A stretch of DNA of 64,000 nucleotides, from positions 124,001 through 188,000 of the forward strand of contig NZ_FUIC01000011.1 of NCBI RefSeq assembly GCF_900163695.1, in the 5' to 3' direction. The notes under the pieces were generated by a model. That model worked only from the letters and a program-made list of their open reading frames with translations, ran no database searches and was not told the origin of the DNA. Origin of the DNA: Gulosibacter sp. 10. GTDB lineage: Bacteria; Actinomycetota; Actinomycetes; Actinomycetales; Microbacteriaceae. This document shows positions 7,186 to 46,032 of the stretch, piece after piece (the first letter of the stretch is position 1; each line of letters begins with the position of its first letter). Both the position numbers and the translations under genes were made by a program.

Positions 7186-7238
7186 GGGTCGGATAGCGGA
7201 GGCGAGGACGCATGCTCCTCCGCCCGGCTATCCGTCCC
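7186..7238 (+). repeat. 53-bp palindromic element, copy A
   Basis: The left arm GGGTCGGATAGCG and right arm GGCTATCCGTCCC are 27 bp apart. The usual GAATAG/CTATTC pair is changed on both sides to GGATAG/CTATCC, which keeps the pairing. Confidence 0.8.
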
Positions 7239-7334
7239 GTTTCAGTCTCTGCGCCCCGGCTCCGTCCGTCACCGGGCACGGGCCCGGGCCTGGCGGCAGG
7301 CGGTTTCGGCTCCCGGCCGGATGACGGACCGATC

Positions 7335-7367
7335 CTGGGTCTGGGTCTGGGTCTGGGTCTGGGTCTG
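7335..7367. repeat. Hexanucleotide tandem repeat (CTGGGT)5
   Basis: Five perfect CTGGGT units plus a partial one. It could vary in length by slippage. It does not lie inside a supported gene. Confidence 0.9.
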
Positions 7368-7445
7368 AGCCCGAGCCCGCACCGGGCGCTGTCGACGAAG
7401 CCGGTGTTCTCGGCAGGCCGGCGGCGGTTCCGGGAGTGCGCCGTC

Positions 7446-7498
7446 GGGGCGAATAGCGGCCGCGCGTTCGTGGGAGCGTTCGCGCGGCTATGCGTCCC
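7446..7498 (+). repeat. 53-bp palindromic element, copy B
   Basis: The left arm GGGGCGAATAGCG and right arm GGCTATGCGTCCC are in the same polarity as copy A. The 27-bp centre begins and ends with GC-rich pairing bases. Confidence 0.8.
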
Positions 7499-7564
7499 GA
7501 ACGCACCCGGCTCCCGAGCCGATACGCCGGGATCCGGCCTCCGCGCGGTCACGTCTCCGCTCGG

Positions 7565-7873
7565 TTACGTCTCCGGGTAGTCGCCCGCGATGGCGCGCAG
7601 GGCCGCGAGGTGGCTGGCGAATGCGCGCCGGCCCTTGGCGGTGGACGCGACCCAGGTGCGCGGCCGGTTGCCGACGTAGCCGCGAGTGGTGCGCACATAG
7701 CCGAGGCCCTCGAGCCGCGCGACAGCCTTGCTGAGCGCGGAATCGCTCGTGTCGAGCAGCTCCCGCAGCGTGCGGAAGTCCATCTCGGCGTCGCCTCGCA
7801 GCGCCGCCATGAGCGAGAAGCGGACCGGCGTCTGGAACGCCTCGTCGAGGCCGTGTCGTGGATGCGGGGTCAT
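7565..7873 (-). CDS. Small winged-helix transcriptional regulator (MarR/HTH_34-like)
   Basis: A 102-residue protein made of little more than one winged helix-turn-helix. Its helices run through FRTLRELLDTSDSALSKAV (recognition helix DSALSKAVARLE), followed by a wing around VRTTRGYVGNRP. It resembles the short MarR/DUF24-like regulators that often control a neighbouring membrane protein gene. The start overlaps the end of the upstream membrane protein gene by 4 bases, so the two are translated as a unit. A palindrome at the front of that gene (8834-8849) is the likely operator. The ligand is unknown. Confidence 0.8.
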   Translation of the reverse strand: MTPHPRHGLDEAFQTPVRFSLMAALRGDAEMDFRTLRELLDTSDSALSKAVARLEGLGYVRTTRGYVGNRPRTWVASTAKGRRAFASHLAALRAIAGDYPET

Positions 7874-8841
7874 CCGCGGTGCTCATCCGCCGAAGGCCGG
7901 GGTCCCGCGGTCGCGTCGGGGTCCACCGGATCGGCGCCGGTCGCGTCGCTATTGACGAGACCGGAGCCTGTCGGGTCGGCGCCGCCGGGCTCGGACCCGG
8001 ACGAGTCCTGCGGGGGTGCTCCCGGCGCCTCGGCCGCGCTGCGCCGCGGCGTGAATGCGGCGCTCGCGATCAGCAGCGCCGCGATCGCTCCCGACACGAT
8101 GCAGGCCGACGTCGTCAGCGCATCGGTGAAGCTGTCGAGCAGGATCGCCGCGTACAGGATTGCGAGACCCGCGCTGAAGGCCAACCAGTGCCTCGGCGCC
8201 CATTCGAATCCGGCGCGCTCCAGCCCCCAGCGGCTGCGGGACAGCAGGACCGTCGCGCCGGCGAGCACCGCGCCGAGCACCGGTATCGCCGTCGGAGCGT
8301 ACTGCCACTGGACCGCGGCGATCAGGAACCCGAGGACCAGTCCTGCGAGCACGGTCATGCATCGCACCGGCGTGCTCAGCGGCTGCGGCGCCCAGCCGAG
8401 CTCGCCGCCGCGAGTCCGGCGCAGCTGCCGCACGGGTTCGAAGAGGAGCGCGGCGAAGATCGCCGCGAGCACGAGCACATCGACCCATGCGGGATACCGC
8501 GTCTCCCCGACGCGCAAGATGCCCAGGAGCACGATCGCGGCGGCGAGCGCCACCCAGATCGCGTACCACCAGGGGCTCCGTCGCCGACGCACCGAGAACC
8601 GCTGCACTGCGCCCTCGAAGATGCTCCCGAGCAGCAGCATCGGCAGCACGAAGTGGAAGGGGCTGTCGTAGTGCGTCAGCGTCAGGAGCACCATCGCCGC
8701 ATAGGCGCACAGGATGATCGCCTGCCACAGCCCGAGCAGCGCGAACCCGCGGGACGGACCCCGCTGCAGACTGCGCTCGCGCAGCGTCTCGTAGTCCCGC
8801 AGCTGCTCCGCGGCTTCCTCGGCGCTCGGCTTGCTTTCCAT
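7870..8841 (-). CDS. Polytopic membrane protein of unknown function
   Basis: A 323-residue protein that I do not recognise. The N-terminal 35 residues are charged and helical. About eight hydrophobic segments follow in pairs (for example LLGLWQAIILCAYAAMVLL, AIWVALAAAIVLLGIL and LAFSAGLAILYAAILL). A Pro/Gly/Asp/Ser-rich tail of about 55 residues ends the protein. It is co-transcribed with the small winged-helix regulator that overlaps its 3' end. Such pairs commonly join a membrane protein with its own repressor. The ATG at 8841 lies 6 nt after a TACACT box and inside a palindrome. Confidence 0.75.
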   Translation of the reverse strand: MESKPSAEEAAEQLRDYETLRERSLQRGPSRGFALLGLWQAIILCAYAAMVLLTLTHYDSPFHFVLPMLLLGSIFEGAVQRFSVRRRRSPWWYAIWVALAAAIVLLGILRVGETRYPAWVDVLVLAAIFAALLFEPVRQLRRTRGGELGWAPQPLSTPVRCMTVLAGLVLGFLIAAVQWQYAPTAIPVLGAVLAGATVLLSRSRWGLERAGFEWAPRHWLAFSAGLAILYAAILLDSFTDALTTSACIVSGAIAALLIASAAFTPRRSAAEAPGAPPQDSSGSEPGGADPTGSGLVNSDATGADPVDPDATAGPRPSADEHRG

Positions 8842-8867
8842 CTGGAAAGTGTATGCCGTATGGAAAG
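8834..8867 (-). promoter_or_regulatory. Leaderless promoter with overlapping operator
   Basis: CTTTCCA-N2-TGGAAAG (8834-8849) is a palindrome that straddles the start codon of the membrane protein gene, and a third TGGAAAG half-site lies at 8861-8867. On the minus strand TACACT (8848-8853) is 6 nt before the ATG. Binding of a dimeric regulator would block the promoter. The downstream winged-helix protein is the natural candidate (inferred). Confidence 0.6.
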
Positions 8868-8962
8868 TTCGAGCAAGGCGGTGCGCCACCATACGGGAGG
8901 CCGTGGCTGCCCTGGCCGGATCGAGACGTGGAGCGCGGGCGCGGACATATGCGCGTTCGTCT

Positions 8963-8975
8963 GGCCATCCGTCCC
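8963..8975 (+). repeat. Degenerate half of a 53-bp palindromic element
   Basis: GGCCATCCGTCCC matches the right arm of the family at 11 of 13 positions, and the bases before it include ATATGCG as in other centres. No left arm can be found at the expected distance. Confidence 0.4.
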
Positions 8976-9318
8976 GATCGCGCGACTGGTCCAGCACTGG
9001 CCCGCGTTCCCGCGGTGTACTGGTAGGGGCGGTTGAGGGGGTTCGGGCCGAGACTGTCGCGCCGGTACTGACCAGCCGGGATAGCCGACTGCGGGGCTGC
9101 GCGGGCTGCTGGGGGTCCTGGGGCTGCCAGGAGTGCGGGGCCGCGGAGGCTGCCGGGGGTCTTGAGACTGCCAAGAGCGCAGGGCCGCCGGAGCTGCCGA
9201 GACCGCCGGAGTTGCCAAGGATCCTAGGGCTGCCGGGACCGGAGGAGCTGCCCAGACGGCCGGAGCCGCCGAGATCACGGGAACTGCCAGAGCTGCCAGC
9301 GGCGAACGACGACGCGGG

Positions 9319-9371
9319 CGGGATGCATAGCCTCGGCATCCGCATATGCTGTGCCGCGCGGCTATTCATCC
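9319..9371 (+). repeat. 53-bp palindromic element, copy D
   Basis: The left arm GGGATGCATAGCC pairs with the right arm GGCTATTCATCCC at 12 of 13 positions. The change at position 5 of the arm occurs on both sides, so pairing is kept. Confidence 0.85.
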
Positions 9372-9379
9372 CAGTTCAG

Positions 9380-9600
9380 GCACAGACACGGCCACAAGTA
9401 CAGGTAGGCACAGGCACGAGCCCAGGCGCAGGCACGAGTCCAGGCCGAGGTGCCGGCACAGGCCCGGGTACCGACACAGCCCAGGCCCCGGCACAGGCGC
9501 GGACACGGCCTCGGGCACAGGCGCGGACACGGTCGCGGCGACGGGCACAGGCACGGGCACAAGCGCGGCCACCGGCGCAGTTACGGGCATCAGCGCCTGC
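9380..9600. repeat. Degenerate low-complexity tandem array
   Basis: Repeating motifs of the type ACAGGC(A/G)CGG(A/G)C with irregular spacing. They yield Ala/Arg/Gln/Thr-rich translations in every frame. It is probably non-coding. Confidence 0.6.
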
Positions 9601-9725
9601 GACGGGCTCACCGACGTGCCACCCGACGCCCCACCGACGTCCCACCCGTCTCCTCCCAGGGATGCTGCAGCACCTCCCTCCGGAGGAGGTTGCGCGGGCG
9701 GACGCGCCCCGCGAGGATCGAGGCG

Positions 9726-10316
9726 ATGGTCCAGCGCATCCGCATCCCGCCGAACTACTCCGCCTTCCTCCCGCCGATCCTCATCTTCGCGGTGTTCGGC
9801 GTGCTCGCCCTGCTCACGGCGATGGGGGCATGGCCCGACGAGGACGCCGACGCGGAGACGCTGCAGCAGGGCTACTGGGTCGCCGTCGTGTGCTTCCTCG
9901 TGGCCGGGGGCATGCTCCTCGGCATGTGGATCGACGCCCGCCCCCGGTACTTCGTCATCGCCCCGGAGGGGATCGGCTACGAGGGCCGCAAGCCGCACGA
10001 ATCCTTCTTCGTCCCCTGGCCGCAGCTCGAGTGGGTCGGCATCGAGACCGCCAGGGTGCGCCCGCCCCGCACCCGGCTCGTCATGCTGCGCTTCTGGCGC
10101 ATCCGGGTGCTGTTCACCGGCGCGATCGACGGCTGGGAGCGCGCGCATCCCCCGCTCCGCTCCGGCACCTTCTCGCTGGGCGGCCGGACCCGCGCGATGA
10201 CCTTCGCGTCGAACCGCGCGCTCGTCGGCCCGCTCCGCTCCGCGCTCGCGATGTACGCGCCGGCCAAGTTCCGCGGCGTGTTCGAGCTCGGCAAGATCAT
10301 CGGCAGCCGGCTGTAA
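9726..10316 (+). CDS. Two-TM membrane protein with PH-like domain
   Basis: A 196-residue protein with two membrane helices near residues 14-33 and 49-70. A soluble part of about 125 residues follows, rich in beta strands (RPRYFVIAPEGIGYEG, FFVPWPQLEWVGIE). The layout of two helices followed by a domain that starts with a YFVIAPEGI-type strand is that of bacterial PH-domain membrane proteins. No enzyme motif is visible and the function is unknown. The ATG at 9726 is chosen because the sequence upstream is repeat-derived. It stands alone, downstream of the repeat gap and upstream of the sigma factor gene. Confidence 0.7.
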   Translation: MVQRIRIPPNYSAFLPPILIFAVFGVLALLTAMGAWPDEDADAETLQQGYWVAVVCFLVAGGMLLGMWIDARPRYFVIAPEGIGYEGRKPHESFFVPWPQLEWVGIETARVRPPRTRLVMLRFWRIRVLFTGAIDGWERAHPPLRSGTFSLGGRTRAMTFASNRALVGPLRSALAMYAPAKFRGVFELGKIIGSRL

Positions 10317-10383
10317 GCGCGCCCGCGGCGGCCGCCGGAAATCCGCATCTCACGTTTCCCCGGGCCGGCGCGTCTACCGTGCG

Positions 10384-10887
10384 ATGACGATGAAACAACC
10401 ATTCGAGCGGGCGGTGGAGCGGCACGGGGCGACCGTGCTGCGAGTCTGCCGCGCGGTGCTCGGCCCGGGCGCGGACGCCGACGACGCCTGGTCGGAGACG
10501 TTCCTGGCCGCGCTGCGCGCCTGGCCGGAGCTGCCGGAGAGCACGAACACGGAGGCGTGGCTGGTGCGGGTGGCCCGGCGGAAGGCGATCGACGTGGTCC
10601 GCCTCCGCGCCCGGCACGCGATCCCCGTCGACCGCGTGCCCGAACGGCCCTCGACGATCGGCAACCCCGGCCGCGACGACGAGGAGGTGTGGCTCGCCGT
10701 CGCGGCGCTTCCCGAGCGTCAGCGCCTCGCGGTGGCCTACCACTACCTCGGCGGGCTGCCGCACGCCGAGACCGCGGCGCTGATCGGCGGCACCCCGGAC
10801 GCCGTGCGCCGGGCAGCGGCCGACGGCATCAAGCGGCTGCGCCGGGTCTACGGCGCGGACGGGAAGCAGGAAGGAGCGACCCCATGA
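10384..10887 (+). CDS. ECF-type RNA polymerase sigma factor
   Basis: A 167-residue sigma-70 family protein with only regions 2 and 4. Region 2 spans about residues 8-80 (LRVCRAVLG, DADDAWSETFLAALR, EAWLVRVARRKAIDVVR). Region 4 spans about 100-155 (LPERQRLAVAYHYLGGLPHAETAALIG). The next gene, ogt, overlaps by 4 bases and is certainly co-translated, so this sigma factor probably directs a response to DNA alkylation or the expression of the repair gene itself. No anti-sigma factor gene is adjacent. The first of two close ATGs (10384 and 10390) is used. Confidence 0.88.
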   Translation: MTMKQPFERAVERHGATVLRVCRAVLGPGADADDAWSETFLAALRAWPELPESTNTEAWLVRVARRKAIDVVRLRARHAIPVDRVPERPSTIGNPGRDDEEVWLAVAALPERQRLAVAYHYLGGLPHAETAALIGGTPDAVRRAAADGIKRLRRVYGADGKQEGATP

Positions 10888-11525
10888 ACACAGACAACCC
10901 CATGAACACAGACGCCCCCATGAGCGCCGGCACCCGGCCGGCCGCCGAGCTGTTCCCCGTCGCGGACGCGCACCTCGACCGCCTCCGCGCCGGTATCGCC
11001 GCCCGCGCCGACGAGGAGGGCGTGCTCGACGTCGCCTACCGCACGCTCGGCACGCCCGTGGGCACGCTGCTGCTCGCGGCCACCGGTCGGGGCCTCGTGC
11101 GCGTCGCGTTCGAGCGGGAGGGATTCGACGCCGTGCTGGAGACCCTCGCCGAGCGGATCAGCCCGCGGGTGCTCGAGGCGCCGGCCCGGCTGGACGCGGC
11201 CGCCGCGGAGCTCGAGGAGTACTTCGCGGGCCAGCGGCGCGGCTTCGACCTGCCGCTGGACCACGCGTTGTCCTCCGGCTTCCGGGAGAGCGTGCAGCGC
11301 TTCCTGCCGCGCATCGGCTACGGCCGCACCCGCACCTACAAGGAGGTCGCGGAATCCGTCGGCAGCCCGAAGGCCGTGCGCGCGGTGGGCAGCGCGTGCG
11401 CGACCAATCCGCTGCCCGTGGTCGTGCCCTGCCACCGCGTGCTGCGCGCCGACGGCGGCCTCGGCGGCTACATCGGCGGCCTGGACGCGAAGACGGCGCT
11501 GCTGCGCCTGGAGCGCGCGGCATGA
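10884..11525 (+). CDS. ogt: Methylated-DNA--protein-cysteine methyltransferase
   Basis: A 213-residue O6-alkylguanine-DNA alkyltransferase. The alkyl-accepting Cys183 sits in the invariant PCHRV motif, and the DNA-binding helix-turn-helix precedes it (GRTRTYKEVAESVGSPKAVRAVGSA). The enzyme moves a methyl group from guanine O6 to its own cysteine in one irreversible step. The N-terminus before residue 50 is longer than in compact Ogt proteins, with Met/Asn/Thr/Asp repeats at its start, and the true start could be a later ATG (10902 or 10920). AAGGAG at 10871-10876 supports 10884. Confidence 0.9.
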   Translation: MNTDNPMNTDAPMSAGTRPAAELFPVADAHLDRLRAGIAARADEEGVLDVAYRTLGTPVGTLLLAATGRGLVRVAFEREGFDAVLETLAERISPRVLEAPARLDAAAAELEEYFAGQRRGFDLPLDHALSSGFRESVQRFLPRIGYGRTRTYKEVAESVGSPKAVRAVGSACATNPLPVVVPCHRVLRADGGLGGYIGGLDAKTALLRLERAA

Positions 11526-11615
11526 TCGGCGCCGGGGGGCGGGTCAAGGACGCGAGTGCAGTGGTTGATCACCGCTAGCCGAGAGCGGTTCCAGCGGGCC
11601 GGGGCATGCCGGCCA

Positions 11616-12806
11616 TCATCTCGGAGTCTCCGCAGGCTTCTCGGTGTAGGTCATCGGCATTTCCATGACGTTGAGGATCTCGGGTGCGTACCACCGCTCC
11701 CGCCCGCCGCGTCCGTGACTTCCGAGGCTCTTCAGCCAGCCATTACTCTCAGCCTTCTTGATCAGGTTTCGAGCCCCTTGATTCGTTAGTTCGAGTTGTG
11801 ATTGCACATATTTGACTGTCACGAACGGGTTTTTGATGATCAGATTGACAAGGCGGATGAGGCTCGAGCGTTCCTGGCTCGCGGTTTTCGTGTACCGCTC
11901 ACGGATCTGGATCAACTCTCGAGCCCTGCTGATGGCGTCTTGCGCCTGGGCTTGCACGGCTTCCAGAAAGAATCGAAGCCACCCGTCGATATCGCCTGTT
12001 TCCCGTACGTTTTGAAGCCTCTCGTAGTACCGGTCTCGGTGATTCTCGAAGTAGCTCGAAAGGTAGAGAAGAGGCAAGTTGAGTCGTCCTCGTTCCATCA
12101 AGACCAGGTTGATGAGTAGGCGTCCGATGCGTCCGTTGCCGTCCAGGAACGGGTGGATCGTCTCGAATTGGTAGTGCATTAGCGCTGCCTGAATCAGGGC
12201 GGGCAATCCGCGGCCGTCATCGTTCACGAATCGTTCCCAATCCGCAAGGAGATCGCCGAGATGTTTGGGTAGCGGCGGAACGTATATTGCGTTTTCCGGT
12301 GTTGCGCCGGCATGGCCGACCCAGACCGGCGTGCGTCGAAATTCTCCGGGTGACTTCTCTTCTCCGCGCACTCCTGTCAGCAACGTTTCATGTACCTGCA
12401 AGATGAGCCGCTGGGTGATGGGAAGCTTCTGCGCCAGTCGATATGCCTGATCGCTGGCCGCGAGGTACCGGTGTACTTCGGCGGTGTCATCGTTCGACGC
12501 GGACTCGTCGATTTCAGATTGGAAGATTTCTGAAAGCGAGGCTTGTGTTCCTTCGATACGGGAGCTGGCGAGAGCTTCGCGTCGTAGATAGGGGCCGATG
12601 AGCAGGCTTGGCTCGGTGATAATCGTTCCAAGCCCCTGGAGGTGGCCCAGGGAGGCGTCGGCCTCGGACAAGAGCCTGACGGTATCGGGCGGCAGCTCCA
12701 GCGACCGTGGGATCGGCTTCGGCAGGTAGTAGGTGAATGCCCACTTGTTTCCCGGCTCGATCGTCGCACTCCCGAAACGGGTGTCGCTGAACCTGCTTCC
12801 ATCCAT
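11616..12806 (-). CDS. Fic-domain protein with C-terminal winged helix
   Basis: A 396-residue Fic family protein. The catalytic motif HPFLDGNGRIGR is complete at residues 218-229. Proteins with this motif transfer AMP from ATP to a hydroxyl of a target protein. An inhibitory helix motif SSRIEG (residues 81-86, fitting S/TxxxE G/N) lies before the Fic core, so this is a self-inhibited class II Fic. The last 70 residues look like a winged helix (LELTNQGARNLIKKAE). Codon use is clearly more AT-rich than in the neighbours, and three 72-bp repeats sit just upstream, both consistent with acquisition. The target is unknown. Confidence 0.92.
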   Translation of the reverse strand: MDGSRFSDTRFGSATIEPGNKWAFTYYLPKPIPRSLELPPDTVRLLSEADASLGHLQGLGTIITEPSLLIGPYLRREALASSRIEGTQASLSEIFQSEIDESASNDDTAEVHRYLAASDQAYRLAQKLPITQRLILQVHETLLTGVRGEEKSPGEFRRTPVWVGHAGATPENAIYVPPLPKHLGDLLADWERFVNDDGRGLPALIQAALMHYQFETIHPFLDGNGRIGRLLINLVLMERGRLNLPLLYLSSYFENHRDRYYERLQNVRETGDIDGWLRFFLEAVQAQAQDAISRARELIQIRERYTKTASQERSSLIRLVNLIIKNPFVTVKYVQSQLELTNQGARNLIKKAESNGWLKSLGSHGRGGRERWYAPEILNVMEMPMTYTEKPAETPR

Positions 12807-12812
12807 CAGGTC

Positions 12813-12818
12813 ATATTA
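12813..12818 (-). promoter_or_regulatory. -10 box of leaderless fic promoter
   Basis: TAATAT on the minus strand ends 6 nt before the ATG of the Fic gene, and no Shine-Dalgarno is visible. Confidence 0.55.
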
Positions 12819-12856
12819 CAACTTCGGATGGTTGTTTGTTGGAAGTTGGCAGGAGG

Positions 12857-13065
12857 TTCCTAGTTGATGCGCTGTTCTGTTGGAAGTCGGGTGGGCATCT
12901 CCCACGTGCGTTGGAGCGTGCGCCGAACTTCCTAGTTGATGCGCTGTTCTGTTGGAAGTCGGGTGGGCATCTCCCACGTGCGTTGGAGCGTGCGCCGAAC
13001 TTCCTAGTTGATGCGCTGTTCTGTTGGAAGTCGGGTGGGCATCTCCCACGTGCGTTGGAGCGTGC
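12857..13065. repeat. Three 72-bp tandem direct repeats
   Basis: Near-identical units start TTCCTAGTTGATGCG at 12857, 12929 and 13001, a period of 72 bp. The third unit stops after about 65 bp. Each unit contains the hairpin GTGGG-CATCT-CCCAC. A degenerate piece (TGTTGGAAGTTGGC) at about 12837-12850 looks like a remnant of another unit. There are no spacers. The period is a multiple of three, so open frames run through the array, but none has support as a gene. The array ends about 50 bp from the Fic start. Confidence 0.92.
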
Positions 13066-13141
13066 ATAGCTTTTCCCGGCGGGAACCGATGAGAAGGACG
13101 ATGCGCGAGCCTGCGCGAATGCTCGTAGCCTGCGCTGCGGC

Positions 13142-14155: not shown

Positions 14156-14249
14156 GCCCCCATCCTGCCCGACGCGGATGCGGGGCCGGGCGGGCGGGCT
14201 CCGGACGGATTTCGCGACGCCGTCGCGAAGGTGCGCTATGGTGGCTGCA

Positions 14250-14328
14250 GTGACACGGGGTGCCCCGCCTGGGGCTGAGAACACACCCGTCGAACCTGAT
14301 CCAGTTAGTACTGGCGAAGGAATTGTCA
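14250..14328 (+). promoter_or_regulatory. TPP riboswitch upstream of thiYXZ
   Basis: All core pieces of the THI box are present: GGGGTGCC, GGGCTGAGA, ACACCC, GAACCTGATCCAGTTAGTACTGG and GAAGGAA. TGACA and TGTCA close the P1 stem. It lies about 95 bases before the thiY start. It should shut off the importer when thiamine diphosphate is plentiful. Confidence 0.95.
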
Positions 14329-14423
14329 GCAGAACGTCCTCGCGCACCCCGCGGCAGCATCCTGTCCGCGGCGGCGCTCGCGGTGCATTCGGGTACTCCT
14401 TCGCCTCGAAGGGAGCCACCGAC

Positions 14424-17053: not shown

Positions 17054-17057
17054 CCGG

Positions 17058-19200: not shown

Positions 19201-19293
19201 CTGCTGCTGCCCCTTTCCTGGTTCTCGGAACCCGGAGACGAAGGGGCGCGCGCCTCGCGCACCGATACCGGTGCGGCACATGCTGCGTCCATC

Positions 19294-19377
19294 GACGACA
19301 TCCCTCCGCGAGTGCGAACTCGATCAGGTTCCCGGGTGTGATCTCAGCCCCCTCTGCGGGGCACCCCGTGTCTGCGG
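19294..19377 (-). promoter_or_regulatory. TPP riboswitch upstream of thiD
   Basis: On the minus strand the THI-box pieces GGGGTGCCCCGC, GGGCTGAGATC, CACCCGGGAACCTGATC and GCGGAGGGA occur in order, flanked by a GACAC/GATGTC closing stem. It lies about 95 bases before the TTG of thiD. It controls the salvage and kinase genes by thiamine diphosphate. Confidence 0.93.
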
Positions 19378-19472
19378 CCAAGCTACCACAACGCCGCGAC
19401 GGGGCGGCCCCGAGCTCCCCGGGGCGCCCCGCGCCTGCGCCGGCGTGCACGACGTCCCAAGTCGCGCGGCGC

Positions 19473-35856: not shown

Positions 35857-35862
35857 GCCGGC

Positions 35863-37298: not shown

Positions 37299-37305
37299 GA
37301 AGGGC

Positions 37306-38034
37306 GTGACCAAAGTCGACCTCGAAAAGCGCCCCGCCGATGTGTCGAGCATGTTCGATCGCGTCTCGCGAAAGTACGACCTGACGAACGACGTGCTCAC
37401 CGCGGGCATCGCGCCCTATTGGCGCGCGCGGACGCGGCAGGCGATCGACCCGCGTCCCGGCCAGCGCGTGCTCGACGTCGCGTGCGGCACCGGCACGGTC
37501 TCGCGCATCCTCGCCGACCACGGCGCCGAGGTCACCGGGCTCGACTTCTCCAAGGGCATGATCGAGGAGGGCATCAGGCGCCACGGCGACCATCCGAACA
37601 TCGCCTTCCAGCAGGGGGACGCGACCGACCTGCCCTTCGAGGACGGCAGCTTCGACGTCACGACGGTGAGCTTCGGCATCCGCAACGTGCAGCGGCCCGA
37701 GAAGGCGCTCGCGGAGATGCTGCGCGTCACCCGGCCCGGCGGCCGGATCGTGGTGTGCGAGTTCTCGCGCCCCACGAACGCCGTGATCGGCTGGGGATAC
37801 GACACCTACATGAACGTCGCGATGCCCGGCATCGTCAAGCTCGTCTCCTCCGATCCGGAGGCCTACGACTACCTCTTCAAGTCCATCCAGGACTGGCCCG
37901 ATCAGCGCACCTTCGCGAGCTGGCTGCGCGAGGCGGGCTACGAGCAGGTCGCGCACCGCAACCTCGCCTACGGCATCGTCGCGCTGCACCGCGGCGTCAA
38001 GCCGATCCCCACGACCGCGCAGGAGAGCAATTGA
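37306..38034 (+). CDS. menG: Demethylmenaquinone methyltransferase
   Basis: A 242-residue SAM-dependent methyltransferase of the UbiE/MenG family, the last step of menaquinone synthesis. It begins with VSSMFDRVSRKYDLTND. The SAM site is VLDVACGTGTVSRIL (motif I), followed by GLDFSKGMIEEG, and the family signature near the middle is TVSFGIRNVQRPEKAL. The GTG at 37306 is preferred because it sits 7 nt from a TAGGAT box. ATG 37297 is the alternative. Its stop overlaps the TTG start of the polyprenyl synthase gene. Confidence 0.93.
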   Translation: MTKVDLEKRPADVSSMFDRVSRKYDLTNDVLTAGIAPYWRARTRQAIDPRPGQRVLDVACGTGTVSRILADHGAEVTGLDFSKGMIEEGIRRHGDHPNIAFQQGDATDLPFEDGSFDVTTVSFGIRNVQRPEKALAEMLRVTRPGGRIVVCEFSRPTNAVIGWGYDTYMNVAMPGIVKLVSSDPEAYDYLFKSIQDWPDQRTFASWLREAGYEQVAHRNLAYGIVALHRGVKPIPTTAQESN

Positions 38035-39152: not shown

Positions 39153-39234
39153 CGCGCCCCGACCCGGGGCGCCCAGGCGGCGGGCCGTCGGCCCGCCGAG
39201 ACACGAGAGGGCCGCTGGCCCGGGGAGGTTACGA

Positions 39235-40596
39235 ATGTCGAAACTGCGCGTCGCCGTGGTGGGGGCCGGACCGGCCGGCATCTACGCGTCGGACATCCTG
39301 CGGAAGGAGGCCGAGGGCCGCCACGAGGTCTCGATCGACCTGTTCGACCGTCTCCCCGCGCCCTACGGGCTCGTCCGCTACGGTGTCGCCCCGGACCATC
39401 CCCGCATCAAGGGCGTCGTGAACGCGCTGCGCGACGTGCTCGACAACGGCGGCATCCGGGTCTTCGGCAACGTCGACTTCGGCCGCGACATCACGATCGA
39501 GGACCTCCGCGAGCGGTACCACGCGGTGATCTTCGCGACGGGCGCGATGCACGACGCGCCCCTCGACATCCCCGGCATTGAGGCCGAGGGCTCCTACGGC
39601 GCCGCCGACTTCGTGAACTGGTACGACGGGCATCCGGACGTCCCGCGCGAGTGGCCGCTCGACGCCGAGCACGTCGCGGTGGTCGGCAACGGCAACGTGG
39701 CGCTCGACGTCGCGCGCGTGCTCGCGAAGCAGGCCGACGACATGCTCCCCACCGAGATCCCCGAGAACGTGTACCGCGGGCTCGGCGACTCGAAGGTCAC
39801 CGACGTGCACGTGTTCGGCCGCCGCGGCCCGCTGCAGGTGAAGTTCACCCCGCTCGAGCTGCGCGAGCTCGGCGAGGTGCCGGACACCGACATGGTCGTG
39901 TACGAGGAGGACTTCGACCGCGATCCCGCCGCCGACGAGGAGTCGAAGCGCAACAAGCAGCTGCTCGTCATCAGCCGCATCTTCGGCAAGTGGCGCGCGG
40001 CGGATGCGCCGACCGGGGCGAGCCGCCGCATCCACCTGCACTTCTGGTCGCGCCCGCACGAGGTGCTCGCCGACGAGCGGGGGCGCGTGCGCGCGCTGCG
40101 CGTCGAGCGCACCGAGCCCGACGGCTCGGGCGGCGTGCGCGGCACCGGTGAGATGCGCGACTACGAGATCGGCCAGCTCTACCGCGCCGTGGGCTACTTC
40201 GGATCCCCGCTCGAGCAGGTGCCCTACGACCCCGAGCGCGGCGTCATCCCCAACGACGGCGGCCGCGTGGTCGACGCGGGCGGCGAGCAGCTGCCGGGCA
40301 TGTACGCCACCGGCTGGATCAAGCGCGGGCCGGTCGGCCTCATCGGCCACACGAAGTCGGACGCCAAGGAGACCATCGAGCACCTGCTCGCGGGCGAGGA
40401 GACCTGGTGGCGGCCGAGCATCGAGGACGAGAACGAGATCCTCGGGCTGCTCGAGGAGCGCCGGGTGCGCTTCACCGACCTCGAGGGCTGGCACAACCTC
40501 GACTCGCACGAGATCTCGCTGGGCGAGCCCCACGAGCGCGAGCGCATCAAGGTTGTGGACCGCGACGAGATGCTGCGCATCTCGCGCGAGGACTGA
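39235..40596 (+). CDS. fprA: FAD/NADPH oxidoreductase, ferredoxin-NADP reductase FprA type
   Basis: A 453-residue adrenodoxin reductase-like flavoprotein. It has an N-terminal FAD motif (VAVVGAGPAGIYASD), the FprA-typical DRLPAPYGLVRYGVAPDHP stretch, an NADPH-binding motif VAVVGNGNVALDVARVL, and TGWIKRGPVGLIGHTKSDA near the C-terminus. It moves electrons between NADPH and ferredoxins, for example for P450s or redox biosynthesis. It stands alone after the polyprenyl synthase gene. GGGGAGG lies at 39221-39227 ahead of the ATG. Confidence 0.95.
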   Translation: MSKLRVAVVGAGPAGIYASDILRKEAEGRHEVSIDLFDRLPAPYGLVRYGVAPDHPRIKGVVNALRDVLDNGGIRVFGNVDFGRDITIEDLRERYHAVIFATGAMHDAPLDIPGIEAEGSYGAADFVNWYDGHPDVPREWPLDAEHVAVVGNGNVALDVARVLAKQADDMLPTEIPENVYRGLGDSKVTDVHVFGRRGPLQVKFTPLELRELGEVPDTDMVVYEEDFDRDPAADEESKRNKQLLVISRIFGKWRAADAPTGASRRIHLHFWSRPHEVLADERGRVRALRVERTEPDGSGGVRGTGEMRDYEIGQLYRAVGYFGSPLEQVPYDPERGVIPNDGGRVVDAGGEQLPGMYATGWIKRGPVGLIGHTKSDAKETIEHLLAGEETWWRPSIEDENEILGLLEERRVRFTDLEGWHNLDSHEISLGEPHERERIKVVDRDEMLRISRED

Positions 40597-40665
40597 CCCC
40601 GGCTCGTACCCTGCCCCGTCTCCGGCCGCCCCGCCCCGTTTGCGGCAGGGCCGATCGGCGGGGCC

Positions 40666-40718
40666 GGGGCGAATACCCTCGCCATGCCGGTGGCCGGGTT
40701 CGCTCGGCTATTCGTCCC
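40666..40718 (+). repeat. 53-bp palindromic element, copy E
   Basis: The left arm is GGGGCGAATACCC (two mismatches to consensus, at positions 11 and 12 counting the pairing) and the right arm is the consensus GGCTATTCGTCCC. The centre ends GGGTTCGCTC, as in copy H. Confidence 0.85.
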
Positions 40719-40829
40719 GGTTGGGGGAGAGCGCAGCGCGTGCGCCGGACGGGCGCGGTGCTGGTAGCTCTGCTGGTAGCGGGGAGCGGATGAACCCGGC
40801 GCCGGCTGGGATGGCGGTTCGCCCGGTTC

Positions 40830-40882
40830 GGGGCGAATAGCCTGCTCGATCTTGTAGGCGCCGCCGCTCGGCTATTCGTCCC
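40830..40882 (+). repeat. 53-bp palindromic element, copy F
   Basis: Consensus arms GGGGCGAATAGCC and GGCTATTCGTCCC. The 5' flank GCGGTTCGCCCGGTTC is shared exactly with copy J. Confidence 0.9.
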
Positions 40883-40941
40883 GGATGCGGTGTGAACGGG
40901 CTCGGGTGCGGGCGGGGAGCGGTGTATGGGATGTCCGGTTT

Positions 40942-40994
40942 GGGGTGAATAGCCTATTCGGCGGAGTATGCGGTGCCGCCCGGCTATTCCTCCC
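40942..40994 (+). repeat. 53-bp palindromic element, copy G
   Basis: Arms GGGGTGAATAGCC and GGCTATTCCTCCC. The centre contains GGCGG...CCGCC, which would lengthen the stem. The 3' flank GATGCTGTCGGGGC recurs, from ATG on, after copies I and J. Confidence 0.88.
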
Positions 40995-41164
40995 GATGCT
41001 GTCGGGGCGGCGGACCGCTGAGCCGGTAGGAAGCTGGTTTGAGTGCCTGGGCTCCTGGGCTCCTGGGCTGCCGGTTCGAGTGGCTGAGCCCCTGGGCTGC
41101 TGGTTCGAATGGCCGGGCTGCCGGTCGGCTGGTTCGGCGGGCGGCCGGTTCTGGCACCCGGTTC

Positions 41165-41217
41165 GGGGCGAATAGCCTCACCGCGTCGGTGGGCGGGTTC
41201 GCTCGGCTATTCGCCCA
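41165..41217 (+). repeat. 53-bp palindromic element, copy H
   Basis: Arms GGGGCGAATAGCC and GGCTATTCGCCCA. The centre shares GGGTTCGCTC with copy E. Confidence 0.88.
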
Positions 41218-41414
41218 GTCCTGGCCCCGGTCGCCCACGATCGGTGCCCGCGCTCCGCCGAGGGCGCCCTCCGCAGCCCGGCATCCTGCGACCCACCTCC
41301 GCCACGGGCGCCTCTCCGCCGATGGCCTCCTGCCGAGGAGGTCCGGCGGCAGTAGTCCGGCCGGGGAAGTCTGCCGGGGAGGCCCTGCCGGGGGCATCCG
41401 GTCAAGGCAGGAGC

Positions 41415-41442
41415 TTTGCGTTCTTTGCGCAAAGAACGCAAA
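41415..41442. promoter_or_regulatory. Perfect 28-bp palindrome, probable LacI-family operator
   Basis: TTTGCGTTCTTTGC is followed directly by its exact reverse complement. The centre TTTGCGCAAA has the CG core usual for LacI-family sites. It ends 6 bases before a -35 box and so could block the promoter. The regulator gene is the third gene of the same operon. Confidence 0.7.
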
Positions 41443-41447
41443 TTTCA

Positions 41448-41476
41448 TTGTCGCGCCTTCGCTTCCTCCATAGGCT
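41448..41476 (+). promoter_or_regulatory. Promoter of the ggt-MHS-lacI operon
   Basis: TTGTCG at 41448-41453, a 17-bp spacer and TAGGCT at 41471-41476. The start of transcription should be near 41483, about 30 nt before the ATG. Confidence 0.6.
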
Positions 41477-41511
41477 CCCCGGACCTGCAACGGAGCGGAA
41501 GGAAGACCCGG

Positions 41512-43284
41512 ATGCATGCACATTCGACGGAGAGGCCGGCGATCGCGACTCGCGAGAATCGCGGCTCGGGAACAGTGGTGGCGCCGCACGACCAGGCGGT
41601 GCAGGCCGGGCTGGCCATGTACGAGCGAGGCGGCAACGCCGTGGATGCGGCAGTGGCCGCGGCGCTCGTGAGCGGGGTGATCGAGCCCACAGAGACGACC
41701 CTTGCGGGGAGCGGCTTCGCGATTCTCGCCGAGGAGGGCCGCGAGCCGGTCGAGATCGATTTCGGGCCGACGGCGCCCCTCGCCGCATCGCCCGGGATGT
41801 TCGAACTCGAGGAGCCGGGCCGGGGCGCCGAACCGGCCGTGCTCGGGCTCGCACCGGTGGTCGGCAACGCCAACGTGGACGGGCCGCTCGCCTCGGGCGT
41901 GCCCAGGACGCTGCTGGGGCTCACGACCGCGCAGGAGCGGTTCGGCGCGCTCCCGCGCGAGGCCGTCTTCGGCCCCGCCATCGAGGCCGCCCACTCGGGG
42001 TACCGACCGGACGCCTGGCACATCACGGCCGCGTTGAGCGATATCGAGCGGCTGCGCGCCGACCCGATGGCCCGCCGGGTGTTCCTCGACGACCGCGGTC
42101 TGCCGAAGGGCGCGGCCACGGCTGCCGGCTACGGGCGGACGTTCGGCGAGTACCCGCCGATCATGCAGCCGGAGCTCGGCCGCACCCTGGAGCTCGTCGC
42201 CGACCGCGGAGCGGATTGCCTCACCCGCGGGGAGATCGCAGAGGCGCTCGCGGCATCCTCGCGCGAGCGGGGCGGCATCCTCGCCGCCGAGGACCTCGAG
42301 CGCTCGGCGCCGCGAATCCGCGAGGCCCGCCTCCTGCGGTATCGGGAGGCGGTCGTCGCCGCCTCGCACGCGCCCTCGGGCGCCCTCACCGAGCTGCAGG
42401 CCCTCGCGATCTGGCAGCGCGCGAGGCCCGAGCCAGCCCTGCCGGCCGACTCGGGGGAGGGCCTGCGCGCCCTCTCCCTCGCCCTCCGGCACGCGTTCGC
42501 CGACCGCTATCACTGGCTCGGCGACCAGGCGCTCCGCCCCGTTCCCGTCGACGAGCTGCTCTCGGACGAGTACGCCGCGGAGCTCGCGCGACTCGTCGAG
42601 CAGGGCCAGGACGTCCTCGGCTGGGCCGCCGGCGCCCCCTGGCTCACGTACGCCTCCCACGCCGTGCACGATCCGTGGCGGCACGCGGGGGAGGATGCGG
42701 AGACGCCCGTCTGGCGTCCCGCCGGGGCGAACGGCCCGACGAGCGGTACCACCCACGTCTCGGCAGCGGATGCCGAGGGCAGGGTGATCAGCATCACTCA
42801 CACCGCGGCGAACCACTTCGGCAGCGGCATCGTCTGCCCCCGCACGGGGCTCCTCCTCGACTCGTCGATGGCCTGGTTCAACGCCGCTCCCGGCGCCGCG
42901 AACAGCATCGCCCCCGGTGCGAGGGCGCTCGCGAACATGGGCCCCGTCGTGGTGCTCCACGGCGACGGGACGAAGAGCGCGATCGGCGCCTCGGGCGGAC
43001 GGCGGATCGTCAGCGCCGTCGCGCAGCTCGTCATCGCGCTCGTCGACGGCGGGATGACGGCGGCGGACGCCCTCGCGACGCCGCGCATCGACGCGAGCGG
43101 CCCCTCGCTGATCCTGCCCCAGTCGCTGCAGCGGCACGCGGGCCGCGTCTCCGACCTCGGGCTGCGGATCATCCCCGAGTCGAACGACCCCTATCCCATG
43201 GACTTCAGCCGCCCGAACATCGCACGGGCTCTGGGCGACGGCCGCACGGAGTCCGCGATCGCGGCCTCGCAGCACAACTCGTAG
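41512..43284 (+). CDS. ggt: Gamma-glutamyltransferase-family Ntn hydrolase, no signal peptide
   Basis: A 590-residue GGT-family protein that should self-cleave before the catalytic Thr413, in the motif SGTTHVSAADAEGRVIS. It has the N-terminal VAPHDQAVQAGLAMYERGGNAVDAAVAAAL and late SSMAWFN and GPVVVLHGDGTKSAIGASGGRRI. Members cleave gamma-glutamyl bonds or act as acylases on related amides. There is no signal peptide, so the enzyme should work in the cytoplasm on an imported compound. The ATG at 41512 follows GGAAGGAAG. It is first in an operon with an MHS transporter and a LacI regulator. Confidence 0.88.
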   Translation: MHAHSTERPAIATRENRGSGTVVAPHDQAVQAGLAMYERGGNAVDAAVAAALVSGVIEPTETTLAGSGFAILAEEGREPVEIDFGPTAPLAASPGMFELEEPGRGAEPAVLGLAPVVGNANVDGPLASGVPRTLLGLTTAQERFGALPREAVFGPAIEAAHSGYRPDAWHITAALSDIERLRADPMARRVFLDDRGLPKGAATAAGYGRTFGEYPPIMQPELGRTLELVADRGADCLTRGEIAEALAASSRERGGILAAEDLERSAPRIREARLLRYREAVVAASHAPSGALTELQALAIWQRARPEPALPADSGEGLRALSLALRHAFADRYHWLGDQALRPVPVDELLSDEYAAELARLVEQGQDVLGWAAGAPWLTYASHAVHDPWRHAGEDAETPVWRPAGANGPTSGTTHVSAADAEGRVISITHTAANHFGSGIVCPRTGLLLDSSMAWFNAAPGAANSIAPGARALANMGPVVVLHGDGTKSAIGASGGRRIVSAVAQLVIALVDGGMTAADALATPRIDASGPSLILPQSLQRHAGRVSDLGLRIIPESNDPYPMDFSRPNIARALGDGRTESAIAASQHNS

Positions 43285-43295
43285 AAGGCGAAATC

Positions 43296-44603
43296 ATGCA
43301 CACGACCACAGACCACGACTCGACGAAACCGCTCACCGACGTCACAGCCACCAAGACGTTCCTCGTCTCGGGCATCGGCACGGCCCTCGAGTACTACGAC
43401 TTCCTCATCTACGGCCTCGCCGCCGGCCTCGTCTTCAACGTGGTGTTCTTCCCGGAGGTCGACCCGATCATCGGCACGCTCTACGCGTTCGCCGCCTTCG
43501 GCACCGGCTTCCTCGCCCGCCCGCTGGGCGGCGTCATCATCGGCCACTTCGGCGACCGCATCGGGCGGCGGCCGATGCTCGTGCTGACGCTCATCACGAT
43601 GGGCGTCTCGACGCTGGCGATCGGGTTCCTGCCGACCTACGCCACGATCGGCATCTGGGCGCCGATCCTGCTCGTGCTCCTGCGCCTCGTCCAGGGCTTC
43701 GCGGCGGGCGGGGAATGGGGCGGCGCGGCGCTGTTCGGCCTCGAGAACGCGCCATCGAACCGCCGCGGCCTGTGGGGCAGCTTCACCAGCATGGGCATCG
43801 GCCTCGGCACGCTCATCGGCACCGGCGTCTTCGCCATCACGAGCGCAGTCGCGGGCGGCGACCTCGTGGAGTTCGCGTGGCGCATCCCGTTCTGGCTCGG
43901 CGGCGTGCTCGTGATCATCGGTCTGCTGGCACGGCTCAGCATGCCGAGCGAGGAACCGGTCAAGACCTCGGATTCGGGCACCATCCCCTTCGTCGAGATG
44001 TTCAAGAAGCACCCCAAGCAGATCTTCCTCGTGCTCGGCGTCAGCTACGGCTACAACACGATCGCGTACATCGGCTTCACCTTCTTCCTGTCGTACCTCA
44101 CCTCGCTCGGCTACGACTCGACGCAGGCGCTCATCGGCCAGCTCGCCTACAGCGCGGTCCTCGTCGCGAGCGCGCCGCTGTGCGCGCTGTGGTCGGACGT
44201 GATCGGCCGCAAGAAGGTGATGGTGATCGGCGGCGTCTCGATGGCGGTGTTCCTGTTCATCTATTTCCCGATGGTGGGCACGATGAGCGTGGCGATGGCG
44301 ACGATCGCGTTCGGGATCACCGGCCTGCTGACGGGCATCACGCAGGGCCCCATCCCCACGTTCTCGGGCGAGCAGTTCCCCTCGCACCTGCGCTACAGCG
44401 GCATGTCCGCGGGCTACCAGATCGGCGCGGCGCTCGGCGGCGGCACGGCATCGTTCATCGCCACCTGGCTGCTCGTGGTGTTCGACGGCAACCCGGTCTC
44501 GGTGGCGGTGTACGGTGCATTCGTGATGCTCGTGCTGATCCTCTGCTCGCTCGGCCTGCGGGAGACGCATCGGGTACCGACGGAGGAGATCAACGCCGGA
44601 TAG
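43296..44603 (+). CDS. MHS-family MFS metabolite:proton symporter
   Basis: A 435-residue twelve-TM transporter of the metabolite:H+ symporter branch of the MFS. The family start is GIGTALEYYDFLIYGLAAGLVFN. The loop 2-3 motif is GHFGDRIGRRPMLVLTL and the TM4-5 region reads RLVQGFAAGGEWGGAALF. Substrates in the family are dicarboxylates, shikimate, betaines and similar. It lies 11 bases behind ggt, so it probably brings in the substrate for that enzyme. Confidence 0.9.
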   Translation: MHTTTDHDSTKPLTDVTATKTFLVSGIGTALEYYDFLIYGLAAGLVFNVVFFPEVDPIIGTLYAFAAFGTGFLARPLGGVIIGHFGDRIGRRPMLVLTLITMGVSTLAIGFLPTYATIGIWAPILLVLLRLVQGFAAGGEWGGAALFGLENAPSNRRGLWGSFTSMGIGLGTLIGTGVFAITSAVAGGDLVEFAWRIPFWLGGVLVIIGLLARLSMPSEEPVKTSDSGTIPFVEMFKKHPKQIFLVLGVSYGYNTIAYIGFTFFLSYLTSLGYDSTQALIGQLAYSAVLVASAPLCALWSDVIGRKKVMVIGGVSMAVFLFIYFPMVGTMSVAMATIAFGITGLLTGITQGPIPTFSGEQFPSHLRYSGMSAGYQIGAALGGGTASFIATWLLVVFDGNPVSVAVYGAFVMLVLILCSLGLRETHRVPTEEINAG

Positions 44604-44629
44604 CCCGGGCCCGGGCGCTGGGAGGGATG

Positions 44630-45613
44630 ATGGCGCATGCGCGACTCGCGGATGTCGCGGAGCACGCGGGGGTGTCGACGACGACCGCCTCGCAGGTCTT
44701 CTCCGGCAAGCGACCCGTGTCGGCGGACACGCGCAGGCGCGTGCTCGAATCCGCCGCGGCCCTCGGCTACCGGCCCAAGGGGCGCACCGGCACCATCGGC
44801 GTGCTGGTGCGCCCCGCCGAGGCGGTCACGAGCTTTCTCGCGGGGACGACCTCGTTCTCGACCATCACGGGCGCGGTGACGCTCGGACTCCTCAACGCCG
44901 GCTACACCGCGTTCGTCTCGAGCTCGCACGCCGAGTTGACCGCCATCGCCGCGAGGCTCGACGGCGCCGTGGTGCTGCACCCGAACTTCGAGGACGAGAC
45001 GCTGCACGAGCTCGAGTCCCGCCGCATCCCGGTCGTGGCCTTCGACCGGGACCCGTCCGGCTCGTCCTTCGAGTGGTGGGTCGGCATCAACTACTTCTCG
45101 TCCTTCATCCGACTCATCCAGCACATCCACGCCACGGGCGGCGACACCATCGGGCTCATCATCGGGGAGACCGACAACATGTACCGCCGCTCCATCCTGC
45201 AGGCCTACTCCGCGCTCGCGGTCTCGTCCGGCAACCGGCAGCTCATCCGGGTGGCCGACAACGACGAGGGCGTCGAGGGTGCGAGGGCCGCCGCCACGAG
45301 GCTGCTGGAGGCGAACCCCGACTGCAACGCCATCCTCACCTCGTCCAGCGTCTTCGCCGCGGGCGCCGAGGCGGCGGTGACGCGGCGCGGGCTCTCGGTG
45401 CCGGAGGACGTGCGCATCGCCTCGGTGCTCGACGGCGCGCCGGCCGAGACCGCCGCCTGTCCGATCACGAGCCTGCGGCTCGACACCACGGCGATCGCCT
45501 CGCGCGTGGTGGAGGTGCTGGAGGAGCGCTTCCGCGACGGCGAGCCTCCCGTGGTGCATCAGTGCATCCCGCTGGAGCTGGTCGTGCGCGGCTCCACGGC
45601 CCGCGCAGGATGA
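44630..45613 (+). CDS. LacI-family transcriptional regulator
   Basis: A 327-residue regulator with an N-terminal LacI helix-turn-helix (RLADVAEHAGVSTTTASQVFSG), hinge (RRRVLESAAALGYRPKG) and a periplasmic-binding-protein-like ligand domain. The second of two adjacent ATGs (44630) is better spaced from GGAGGG than 44627. As the last gene of the ggt operon it probably binds the 28-bp palindrome ahead of ggt and regulates its own operon. That link is inferred from position and the CG-centred site. Confidence 0.9.
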   Translation: MAHARLADVAEHAGVSTTTASQVFSGKRPVSADTRRRVLESAAALGYRPKGRTGTIGVLVRPAEAVTSFLAGTTSFSTITGAVTLGLLNAGYTAFVSSSHAELTAIAARLDGAVVLHPNFEDETLHELESRRIPVVAFDRDPSGSSFEWWVGINYFSSFIRLIQHIHATGGDTIGLIIGETDNMYRRSILQAYSALAVSSGNRQLIRVADNDEGVEGARAAATRLLEANPDCNAILTSSSVFAAGAEAAVTRRGLSVPEDVRIASVLDGAPAETAACPITSLRLDTTAIASRVVEVLEERFRDGEPPVVHQCIPLELVVRGSTARAG

Positions 45614-45669
45614 TTCGGCGCCTGACGCCCCGCGCCCGACATCGGCGCCCGGCGTCGGCCTGCTCTTCG

Positions 45670-45722
45670 GGGGCGAATAGCCGGGCGGGCAGGATATGCG
45701 CGGCCGCCCGGCTATTCGCCCC
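45670..45722 (+). repeat. 53-bp palindromic element, copy I
   Basis: Arms GGGGCGAATAGCC and GGCTATTCGCCCC. The centre begins GGGCGG and ends CCGCCC, so the stem can extend to about 19 bp. Confidence 0.9.
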
Positions 45723-45725
45723 AAT

Positions 45726-45761
45726 GCTGTCGGGGCTGTCGGGGCTGTCGGGGCTGTCGGG
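45726..45761. repeat. 9-bp tandem repeat (GCTGTCGGG)4
   Basis: Four exact 9-bp units start immediately after copy I, with a decayed fifth. The same GCTGTCGGGG follows copies G and J once. Confidence 0.9.
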
Positions 45762-45877
45762 GCGTCGGGTCGGTGGGCCGGCGGGCCGGCGGGAAGCCGG
45801 TTTGGGCGGCGGGACTGCCGGGATGCCGGTTTGCGTGGCCGGGATGCCGGGCGGCTGCTCGGCGGTTCGCCCGGTTC

Positions 45878-45930
45878 GGGGCGAATAGCCTGCTCGGTCC
45901 CGTATGCGCCGCTGCCCGGCTATTCGTCCC
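45878..45930 (+). repeat. 53-bp palindromic element, copy J
   Basis: Consensus arms. The flank and first part of the centre, GTTCGGGGCGAATAGCCTG, match copy F over its whole length. Confidence 0.9.
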
Positions 45931-45979
45931 ACTAATGCTGTCGGGGCCGGCACGGAGCGGGTGTGATGTGCAGCCGTTT

Positions 45980-46032
45980 CGGGGCGTAGAGCTCGGCAGA
46001 ACGGATATATGCCGCCGCCCGGCTATTCACCC
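45980..46032 (+). repeat. 53-bp palindromic element, copy K
   Basis: The left arm is GGGGCGTAGAGCT and the right arm GGCTATTCACCCT. It is the most decayed full-length copy, yet the outer length is still 53 bp. Confidence 0.75.

Follow-up and report, generated by a model that had tools for sequence, protein, structure and literature searches.

The 64,000-nucleotide stretch of Gulosibacter sp. 10 analysed here (contig NZ_FUIC01000011.1, positions 124,001 to 188,000; hereafter the window) carries 11 copies of a palindromic intergenic element whose outer length is 53 bp in all of them, and these copies belong to a family with many members in the source genome (G000; 3.65 Mb in 55 contigs). The members have a fixed length, arms that vary independently of each other, an intergenic position and, where they form arrays, a helical phasing; they are restricted to the origin side of the chromosome on contigs that could be placed, and are absent above background from relatives. 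The interpretation that we favor, and to which we give about even chances, is that the elements are cooperative double-stranded DNA (dsDNA) sites for a putative symmetric protein that would mark an origin-side domain, working like the sites of Noc, SlmA or RacA. We propose a binding-site family of a chromosome protein because half-sites that vary independently, a fixed length, arrays in helical phase and a restriction to the origin half occur together; from these features we infer protein binding, the cooperativity of that binding and the function.

A dyad family of fixed length and its sister family

Scanning for two 13-mers separated by 27 bases, an approach already outlined in the initial annotation of this DNA, gave many copies in the source genome and background in its relatives (see below). 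The pattern GAATAGCC-N27-GGCTATTC was found with up to two mismatches at 43 places in the whole genome (none for the reversed pattern) and with up to three mismatches at 74 places (seven for the reversed pattern). A position weight matrix (PWM) derived from 44 non-redundant copies detected 115 copies scoring over 14 bits within 501,764 bases, with nothing above 8 bits in the reversed sequence; as both the matrix and the scanned bases (the window plus stretches picked for containing copies) were copy-selected, this number is not a genome density. The 115 copies comprise 106 of the family just described (family 1) and nine of a sister family (family 2), and the genome-wide total for family 1 is possibly higher, since the model search scored 150 candidates only.

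The PWM is gapless and thus cannot demonstrate a fixed length, for which a count of half-site pairs with free gap was used instead. In the 1,091,376 bases of G000 examined, the half-sites CGNATAGCC and GGCTATNCG (up to one mismatch each) were paired 45 times at a gap of 27 and no more than twice at each of the remaining gaps between 11 and 80; beside gap 27, more than two pairs were seen only at gaps 9 (eight pairs) and 10 (four pairs). We attribute this small excess to the CGNATATNCG-like motif of the centre, because it resembles the arm core; with the cut-off changed slightly, 26 of 27 pairs with these two gaps link an arm with the element's own centre.

The family-1 consensus over 66 copies reads GGGRCGNATRGCC - 27 bp - GGCYATNCGYCCC and is embedded in a 67-bp dyad with the layout C - 6 bp - GGGRCGNATRGCC - 27 bp - GGCYATNCGYCCC - 6 bp - G. 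Both arms contain a CGNATR core, and the related CGNATATNCG-like motif lies mid-element. In the same 66 copies the C at position -6, seven bases beyond the left end, is conserved in 90% and the G beyond the right end in 83%, position 19 is a purine in 98%, position 35 a pyrimidine in 96%, and positions 26-28 show a T-A-T preference (65-80%). The flanking C and positions 19, 35 and 26-28 were independent of copy selection, while the 16 arm positions were used for it, so that the conservation of the latter partly reflects the selection.

All copies in the window are on the forward strand, in four intergenic gaps as delimited by our own gene caller, each copy being the 53-bp core of the dyad. The gap at 6939-7564 holds the copies at 7186-7238 (PWM score 58.7 bits) and 7446-7498 (45.7 bits); the gap at 8842-9725 those at 8923-8975 (41.1 bits; also a model search hit at C16:132914-132983), with a decayed left arm, and 9320-9372 (60.0 bits); the gap at 40597-41574 an array of four, at 40666-40718 (58.5 bits), 40830-40882 (59.4 bits), 40942-40994 (55.0 bits) and 41165-41217 (50.9 bits); and the gap at 45614-46219 those at 45670-45722 (56.7 bits), whose arms are perfect over 19 bp as seen by inverted-repeat detection, 45878-45930 (55.2 bits) and 45981-46033 (54.2 bits). 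The initial annotation had listed ten copies of 53 bp, all of which are real; eight of its start positions are exact and two (given as 9319 and 45980) are off by one, and the copy at 8923-8975 had escaped it. Its statement that the copies occur only in four long gaps was borne out, the same four gaps lying between the genes of our separate caller. It had also described the centres as different from each other, which is correct in that they are variable, although they tend to have a CGNATATNCG-like motif in common.

Family 2, of which the window has no copy, is built as CTGCYGTTCCGGATGCGWATRG - centre - CYATWCGCATCCGGAACRGCAG, with longer arms, the same 27-bp core spacing as family 1 and a dyad length of 79 bp. 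Its gap was equal in all 13 G000 copies read, although gaps of 15 to 44 were permitted, and the fixed-gap pattern (up to three mismatches) occurs at 20 places in G000, at none in ten congeners and at none in the reversed control. In the left arm 14 of 17 positions are invariant among the 13 copies and another is kept in 12 of them, around variable centres. The sites recognized so far thus number 126 (106 of family 1 in the stretches examined and 20 of family 2 genome-wide).

Arm independence, array phasing and chromosome position

An explanation of the elements as RNA or single-stranded DNA (ssDNA) hairpins (terminators, processing signals or repetitive extragenic palindrome (REP)-like elements, the last of these suggested by the initial annotation) would agree with the capability of the arms to pair and with the position of the clusters, whose median distance is 102 bp from the flanking 3' ends and 172 bp from the 5' ends. 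In an RNA or ssDNA stem, however, facing arm positions should covary, and no such overall constraint was observed. Over 24 facing pairs in the 44 non-redundant copies, facing cells formed standard pairs in 66.5% of cases versus 66.5 ± 0.8% after shuffling, the covariation score was 0.159 versus 0.149 (90 of 500 shuffles equally high), and four of the five covariation measures fell inside the shuffle range. At positions 19/35 the combinations among 66 copies are A-C (23), G-C (22), G-T (10), A-T (9) and other (2). Positions 3/51, 9/45, 2/52 and 16/38 were paired above shuffles among the 66 copies; in the non-redundant set this still held for 3/51 and 9/45, via one or two copies each and, for 3/51, via the second family. 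The A/T position 13/53 of family 2 is paired in five of 13 copies. The arms of both families thus vary independently, and because their tolerance is position-specific and arm-independent we favor a protein reading dsDNA half-sites. Moreover, no Rfam model reached its gathering score at the elements (five sources, 126,874 bases, in which two thiamine pyrophosphate (TPP) riboswitches and three tRNAs were found), and a search for the Y1/RAYT transposase PF01797 returned no match in G000, with a positive control in five of 14 named genomes and the search confined to this one transposase family. REP elements and bacterial interspersed mosaic elements (BIME) are intergenic palindromes, often located at gene 3' ends and sometimes clustered; the present elements differ from them by the lack of a Y1/RAYT transposase match in the genome and of an overall covariation of the arms. 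We therefore reject the REP/RAYT assignment and consider hairpins of any kind very improbable.

The two families jointly form 51 clusters, of which 26 are single-copy and the largest has seven copies. Neighboring copies have identical orientation in 63 of 64 cases, and in 132 of 133 array pairs the similarity of the 67-bp core exceeds that of the flanks (medians 75% versus 59%, random expectation 50%). The neighbor spacings cluster, by eye, around 91, 102, 112, 122, 133 and 144 bp. When periods of 5-20 bp were scanned with 60 of the 63 family-1 spacings (three of at least 190 bp being left out), the best period was 10.5 bp, which is the helical repeat of DNA (R 0.478, with none of 4000 jittered sets as high). 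After collapsing to distinct spacings per array, R was 0.48 (n=41, 4 of 4000 jittered sets, Rayleigh p 8e-5), and both families together gave a best period of 10.6 bp (collapsed, 5 of 5000 jittered sets). Like-spaced linkers from different arrays are 54% identical versus 53% for shuffled ones (200 pairs), compared with 74% within the same array (28 pairs); as the linkers of different arrays are unrelated, the shared phase does not reflect one array copied about. A polarity of the elements following replication was considered and rejected, their orientation showing no visible relation to GC skew (by eye).

The chromosomal position of the elements was assessed using the congener G006 (3.47-Mb main contig, sampled to 1.2 Mb) as the reference. 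Its GC skew changes sign at 2.55-2.60 Mb, becoming positive, the interval 2.600-2.620 Mb contains 13 parS cores and six DnaA-box cores, parB is at 2.620 Mb, and a GyrB/ParE-family match is at 2.604-2.606 Mb; we take these features to mark the origin. In G000, parB is found on contig C27, which bears 15 copies in 92 kb.

Contigs of G000 were placed on G006 by matches of open reading frames (ORFs), and 25 of them had at least three concordant matches, several possibly from one gene; a few placed contigs also had single discordant matches, and C54 had two candidate positions, both in the terminus half. In this set, eight of the 17 contigs in the origin half (1431 kb) carry copies, in 42 clusters, versus none of the eight in the terminus half (930 kb), with p values of 0.015 (position permutation), 0.008 (Mann-Whitney) and 0.026 (Fisher); by length alone, and assuming independence of the clusters, the chance that none of 42 falls in the far half is 7e-10. 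A forward test on three further contigs, placed by one orthologous gene each, went in all cases as an origin-side model predicts: the copy-bearing C2 and C29 were assigned to 3.38 and 2.03 Mb, both in the origin half, and C9 (198 kb, without listed copies) to 0.88 Mb in the terminus half. Combined, ten of 19 origin-half contigs and none of nine terminus-half contigs have copies (p 0.007), and in the stretches examined all 44 clusters on placed contigs belong to the origin half (1557 kb) and none to the terminus half (1128 kb). Relative to parB, the copy-bearing placed contigs reach ~0.6 Mb in one direction and 0.76 Mb in the opposite one. Two more, C12 (three clusters) and C43 (one cluster), are weakly placed, both on the origin side; C11, C33 and C45 (one cluster each) have no placement. 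The complete list of 43 genome-wide places with up to two mismatches falls on C11, C12, C16, C21, C25, C27, C38, C41, C43 and C45; for 36 of these places the contig is firmly placed, in every case in the origin half. Weaker copies were sought on contigs without listed ones and numbered zero in 539,612 sampled bases and again zero in a further 40,000 bases taken from four of these contigs. Gaps of at least 250 bp occur at 12.1 per 100 kb in copy-free stretches (a set that includes one 10-kb stretch of C11) versus 17.6 round copies.

Gene context and the regulatory and mobile-element alternatives

Using our own codon-usage caller (437 genes, 82.7% coding), none of the 115 copies was found inside a called gene. 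The 50 copy-bearing gaps of both families are divided into 21 convergent, 23 tandem, five divergent and one at a contig edge, or 21 of 69 convergent, 23 of 269 tandem and five of 66 divergent gaps. This distribution bears on the alternative that the elements are operators of one large transcription-factor regulon, with family 2 as its strong sites and many sites near promoters. A dsDNA dyad with independent half-sites would suit such operators, and seven of 13 family-2 copies precede a called gene start by 34-116 bp, three of the 13 being in divergent gaps. On the other hand, copies occupy a larger fraction of the convergent than of the divergent gaps, and confinement to one chromosome half would be unexpected for a regulon. 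The flanking genes are also of diverse kinds: among 30 flanking proteins sampled, 23 had a Pfam match and seven had none, and the matched families are unrelated (e.g. GMP synthase, PurL-like AIR synthase, alkaline phosphatase, NucS and gamma-glutamyltranspeptidase), with only GFO/IDH/MocA and LacI recurring, twice each. We consider a single regulon improbable.

A more substantial alternative, also raised by the initial annotation as tiny non-autonomous transposable elements, is a remnant of a palindromic mobile element resembling miniature inverted-repeat transposable elements, which in this lineage would have multiplied near the origin through short-range transposition and tandem duplication, its transposase being lost or elsewhere in the genome. 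In line with it, the elements are intergenic and repeated, have inverted ends, stay at background level in relatives and in some cases bracket a gene on both sides. In addition, a comparison of gene neighborhoods over all gap sizes, in which orthologous gaps were few, showed copies adjoining eight of 29 changed gene neighborhoods versus one of 37 conserved ones, a count in which the changed neighborhood of stretch L020 is merely a transposase gene insertion in the relative; for gaps of at least 150 bp the figures are six of 15 versus one of ten, and for gaps of at least 250 bp five of nine versus one of three. Several features of the elements speak against this explanation. No target-site duplication was detected when 106 copies were tested at offsets of 0-20 and lengths of 2-9 (the best z over 168 combinations being 2.8), the length is fixed at a gap of 27, the near-invariant arms of family 2 round variable centres are unlike neutral decay, the helical spacing is shared by arrays whose linkers are unrelated, and the terminus-half stretches examined are without clusters though copy-free stretches also contain long gaps. 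We therefore regard a mobile remnant as unlikely, even if it keeps appreciable weight, given that the elements are specific to this lineage and are located in changeable gaps. It would in any case be an unusual remnant, staying round the origin and keeping helical register.

Several observations were made on the genes and gaps next to the elements. The four-copy gap of L020 has an orthologous counterpart in G006 (L132, ~2,563,400-2,564,600), which contains a transposase gene that by eye looks IS630-type. Two proteins of G000 (L021:1661-2578 and L025:7350-8234), 60% identical to each other, combine an AbiEi-like helix-turn-helix with a DUF559/Vsr-like nuclease domain; they are the sole two of this type in 1.09 Mb of G000 sequence, element copies flank each of them on both sides, and none was found in the 1.2-Mb sample of G006. 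It is possible that they are the partner protein of the element, or that their position is due to chance. A gene without a Pfam match (L033:3614-4531) lies between family-2 sites, at distances of 40 bp on its upstream and 56 bp on its downstream side. Cassettes sharing a transposase were considered and rejected, as two 305-aa proteins, each between family-2 sites, are unrelated to each other. In the window itself, a perfect 28-bp palindrome at 41415-41442 (14-bp arms, no spacer) is operator-like and is situated 5' of the gamma-glutamyltranspeptidase gene; TPP riboswitches are found at 14246-14340 on the forward and 19284-19378 on the reverse strand, the second barely over its gathering score; and long gaps contain tandem repeats of GGGTCT-like (7335-7361), 9-bp GCTGTCGGG-like (45726-45761) and 12-bp GGCACA-like (9490-9586) units, which are unlike the palindromic elements.

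Distribution, known site systems and significance

Among ten congeners, a scan with up to two mismatches gave no match except for a single one in G010, whose control also had one. The sequence model produced one to three weak matches in seven of the ten (rough E values of 0.0045 to 0.1) and none in three, compared with best matches down to 7e-15 in G000; we take the weak matches as background. With up to one mismatch, there are 49 places in G000 and one or two in 41 of 397 other Microbacteriaceae genomes (nine congeners and 388 others), the remaining genomes having none, like the reversed control. A strict scan of genome contigs, which may omit records near the source genome, returned one stretch in a Bacillota metagenome-assembled genome, which we take as chance, and phages, plasmids and viral contigs gave no match. 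A count of inverted 8-mers by gap in eight stretches of G006 revealed no family, but this approach is crude and did not recover the gap-27 family in eight G000 stretches either. In literature titles and abstract openings, among the matches listed and with most subscription journals outside the coverage, the family is undescribed.

The elements share features with several known chromosome site systems. The RacA sites of B. subtilis are origin-side inverted repeats forming a centromere-like element, and the present elements resemble them in being origin-side inverted repeats, although the RacA sites are unlike them in sequence and size. A report on S. aureus Noc describes 41 loci, all but one of them within -700 to +700 kb (PMC5540599). 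The likeness to Noc of Bacillus and Staphylococcus is in the dozens of sites and their origin-proximal confinement; on the other hand, Noc is a ParB relative, whereas G000 has one ParB_N protein, located at the origin, and its elements are 67-79 bp dyads with a fixed 27-bp spacer and are often arrayed. Because no ParB paralogue was found in G000, the elements are not members of the Noc system. For E. coli, SlmA motifs (SlmA-binding sites, SBS) are described in dozens round the chromosome, the terminus excepted, SlmA being a TetR-family protein of Gammaproteobacteria according to the same source (PMC6657595). Here again the dozens of sites and the sparing of the terminus are alike. The length and arrangement of SBS sites differ from the length and arrays of the present elements. 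Finally, parS sites are described as inverted repeats grouped round oriC (PMC8872289). G000 has three ordinary parS cores, TTTCACGTGAAA, in L054, the stretch containing parB; the present elements differ from parS in sequence and reach further along the chromosome.

In the mechanism that we propose, each element would be the dsDNA binding site of a putative symmetric, multi-subunit protein; neighbors in the same orientation and in register would bring the bound proteins onto one face of the helix, where they would probably bind cooperatively, and the sites would mark an origin-side domain of the chromosome. The initial annotation had mentioned sites bound by a chromosome protein among its options, and it is this option that the independent arms, the helical phasing and the origin-side confinement support, the protein itself being a deduction from them.

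A number of observations weigh against this interpretation. No cognate protein was found, the one ParB_N protein of G000 being that at the origin, and a site of 67-79 bp is long for Noc- or SlmA-type proteins. The background-level occurrence in ten congeners and 388 other genomes would be odd for a core chromosome function. Regarding position, nine of 19 placed origin-half contigs are without a listed copy, so that the arc is unevenly filled; one family-2 site is on C22, a contig placed in the terminus half, ~110 kb from the part anchored there; terminus-half contigs were only sampled for weak copies, and large contigs were placed from one part; and long convergent gaps, the type in which copies are most frequent, are themselves fewer in copy-free than in copy-bearing stretches (2.0 versus 5.4 per 100 kb). 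Regarding phase, spacings above 106 bp taken alone give the same best period only weakly (n=25, 313 of 4000 jittered sets), and those of up to 106 bp peak at 12.9 bp (n=16). Regarding the arms, pairs with both sides changed number 18 versus 15.3 after shuffling (6 of 500 shuffles), this being one of the five covariation measures, and the alignment orientation was fitted by best match, so that the slight asymmetry of the element is possibly overfit.

According to a 2021 source, functional homologues of the known nucleoid occlusion systems were still missing from Streptomyces (PMC7968930), in the sense that none had been identified. Going beyond the binding-site interpretation, we tentatively suggest a lineage-specific landmark system, in which a putative protein would build nucleoprotein arrays in helical order on the 126 sites and so define an origin-side domain of an actinobacterial chromosome. 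The system would act in nucleoid occlusion, polar anchoring or domain insulation and would do so independently of Noc, SlmA and RacA; its origin would lie inside a single genus, where it would have coevolved with its own 67-79 bp site. A dense origin-side family of sites in an actinobacterium offers a direct handle on such a system, as the site DNA can serve as bait for the protein. If true, the absence of the sites above background in ten congeners would show how fast a chromosome-organizing system can arise or be replaced.

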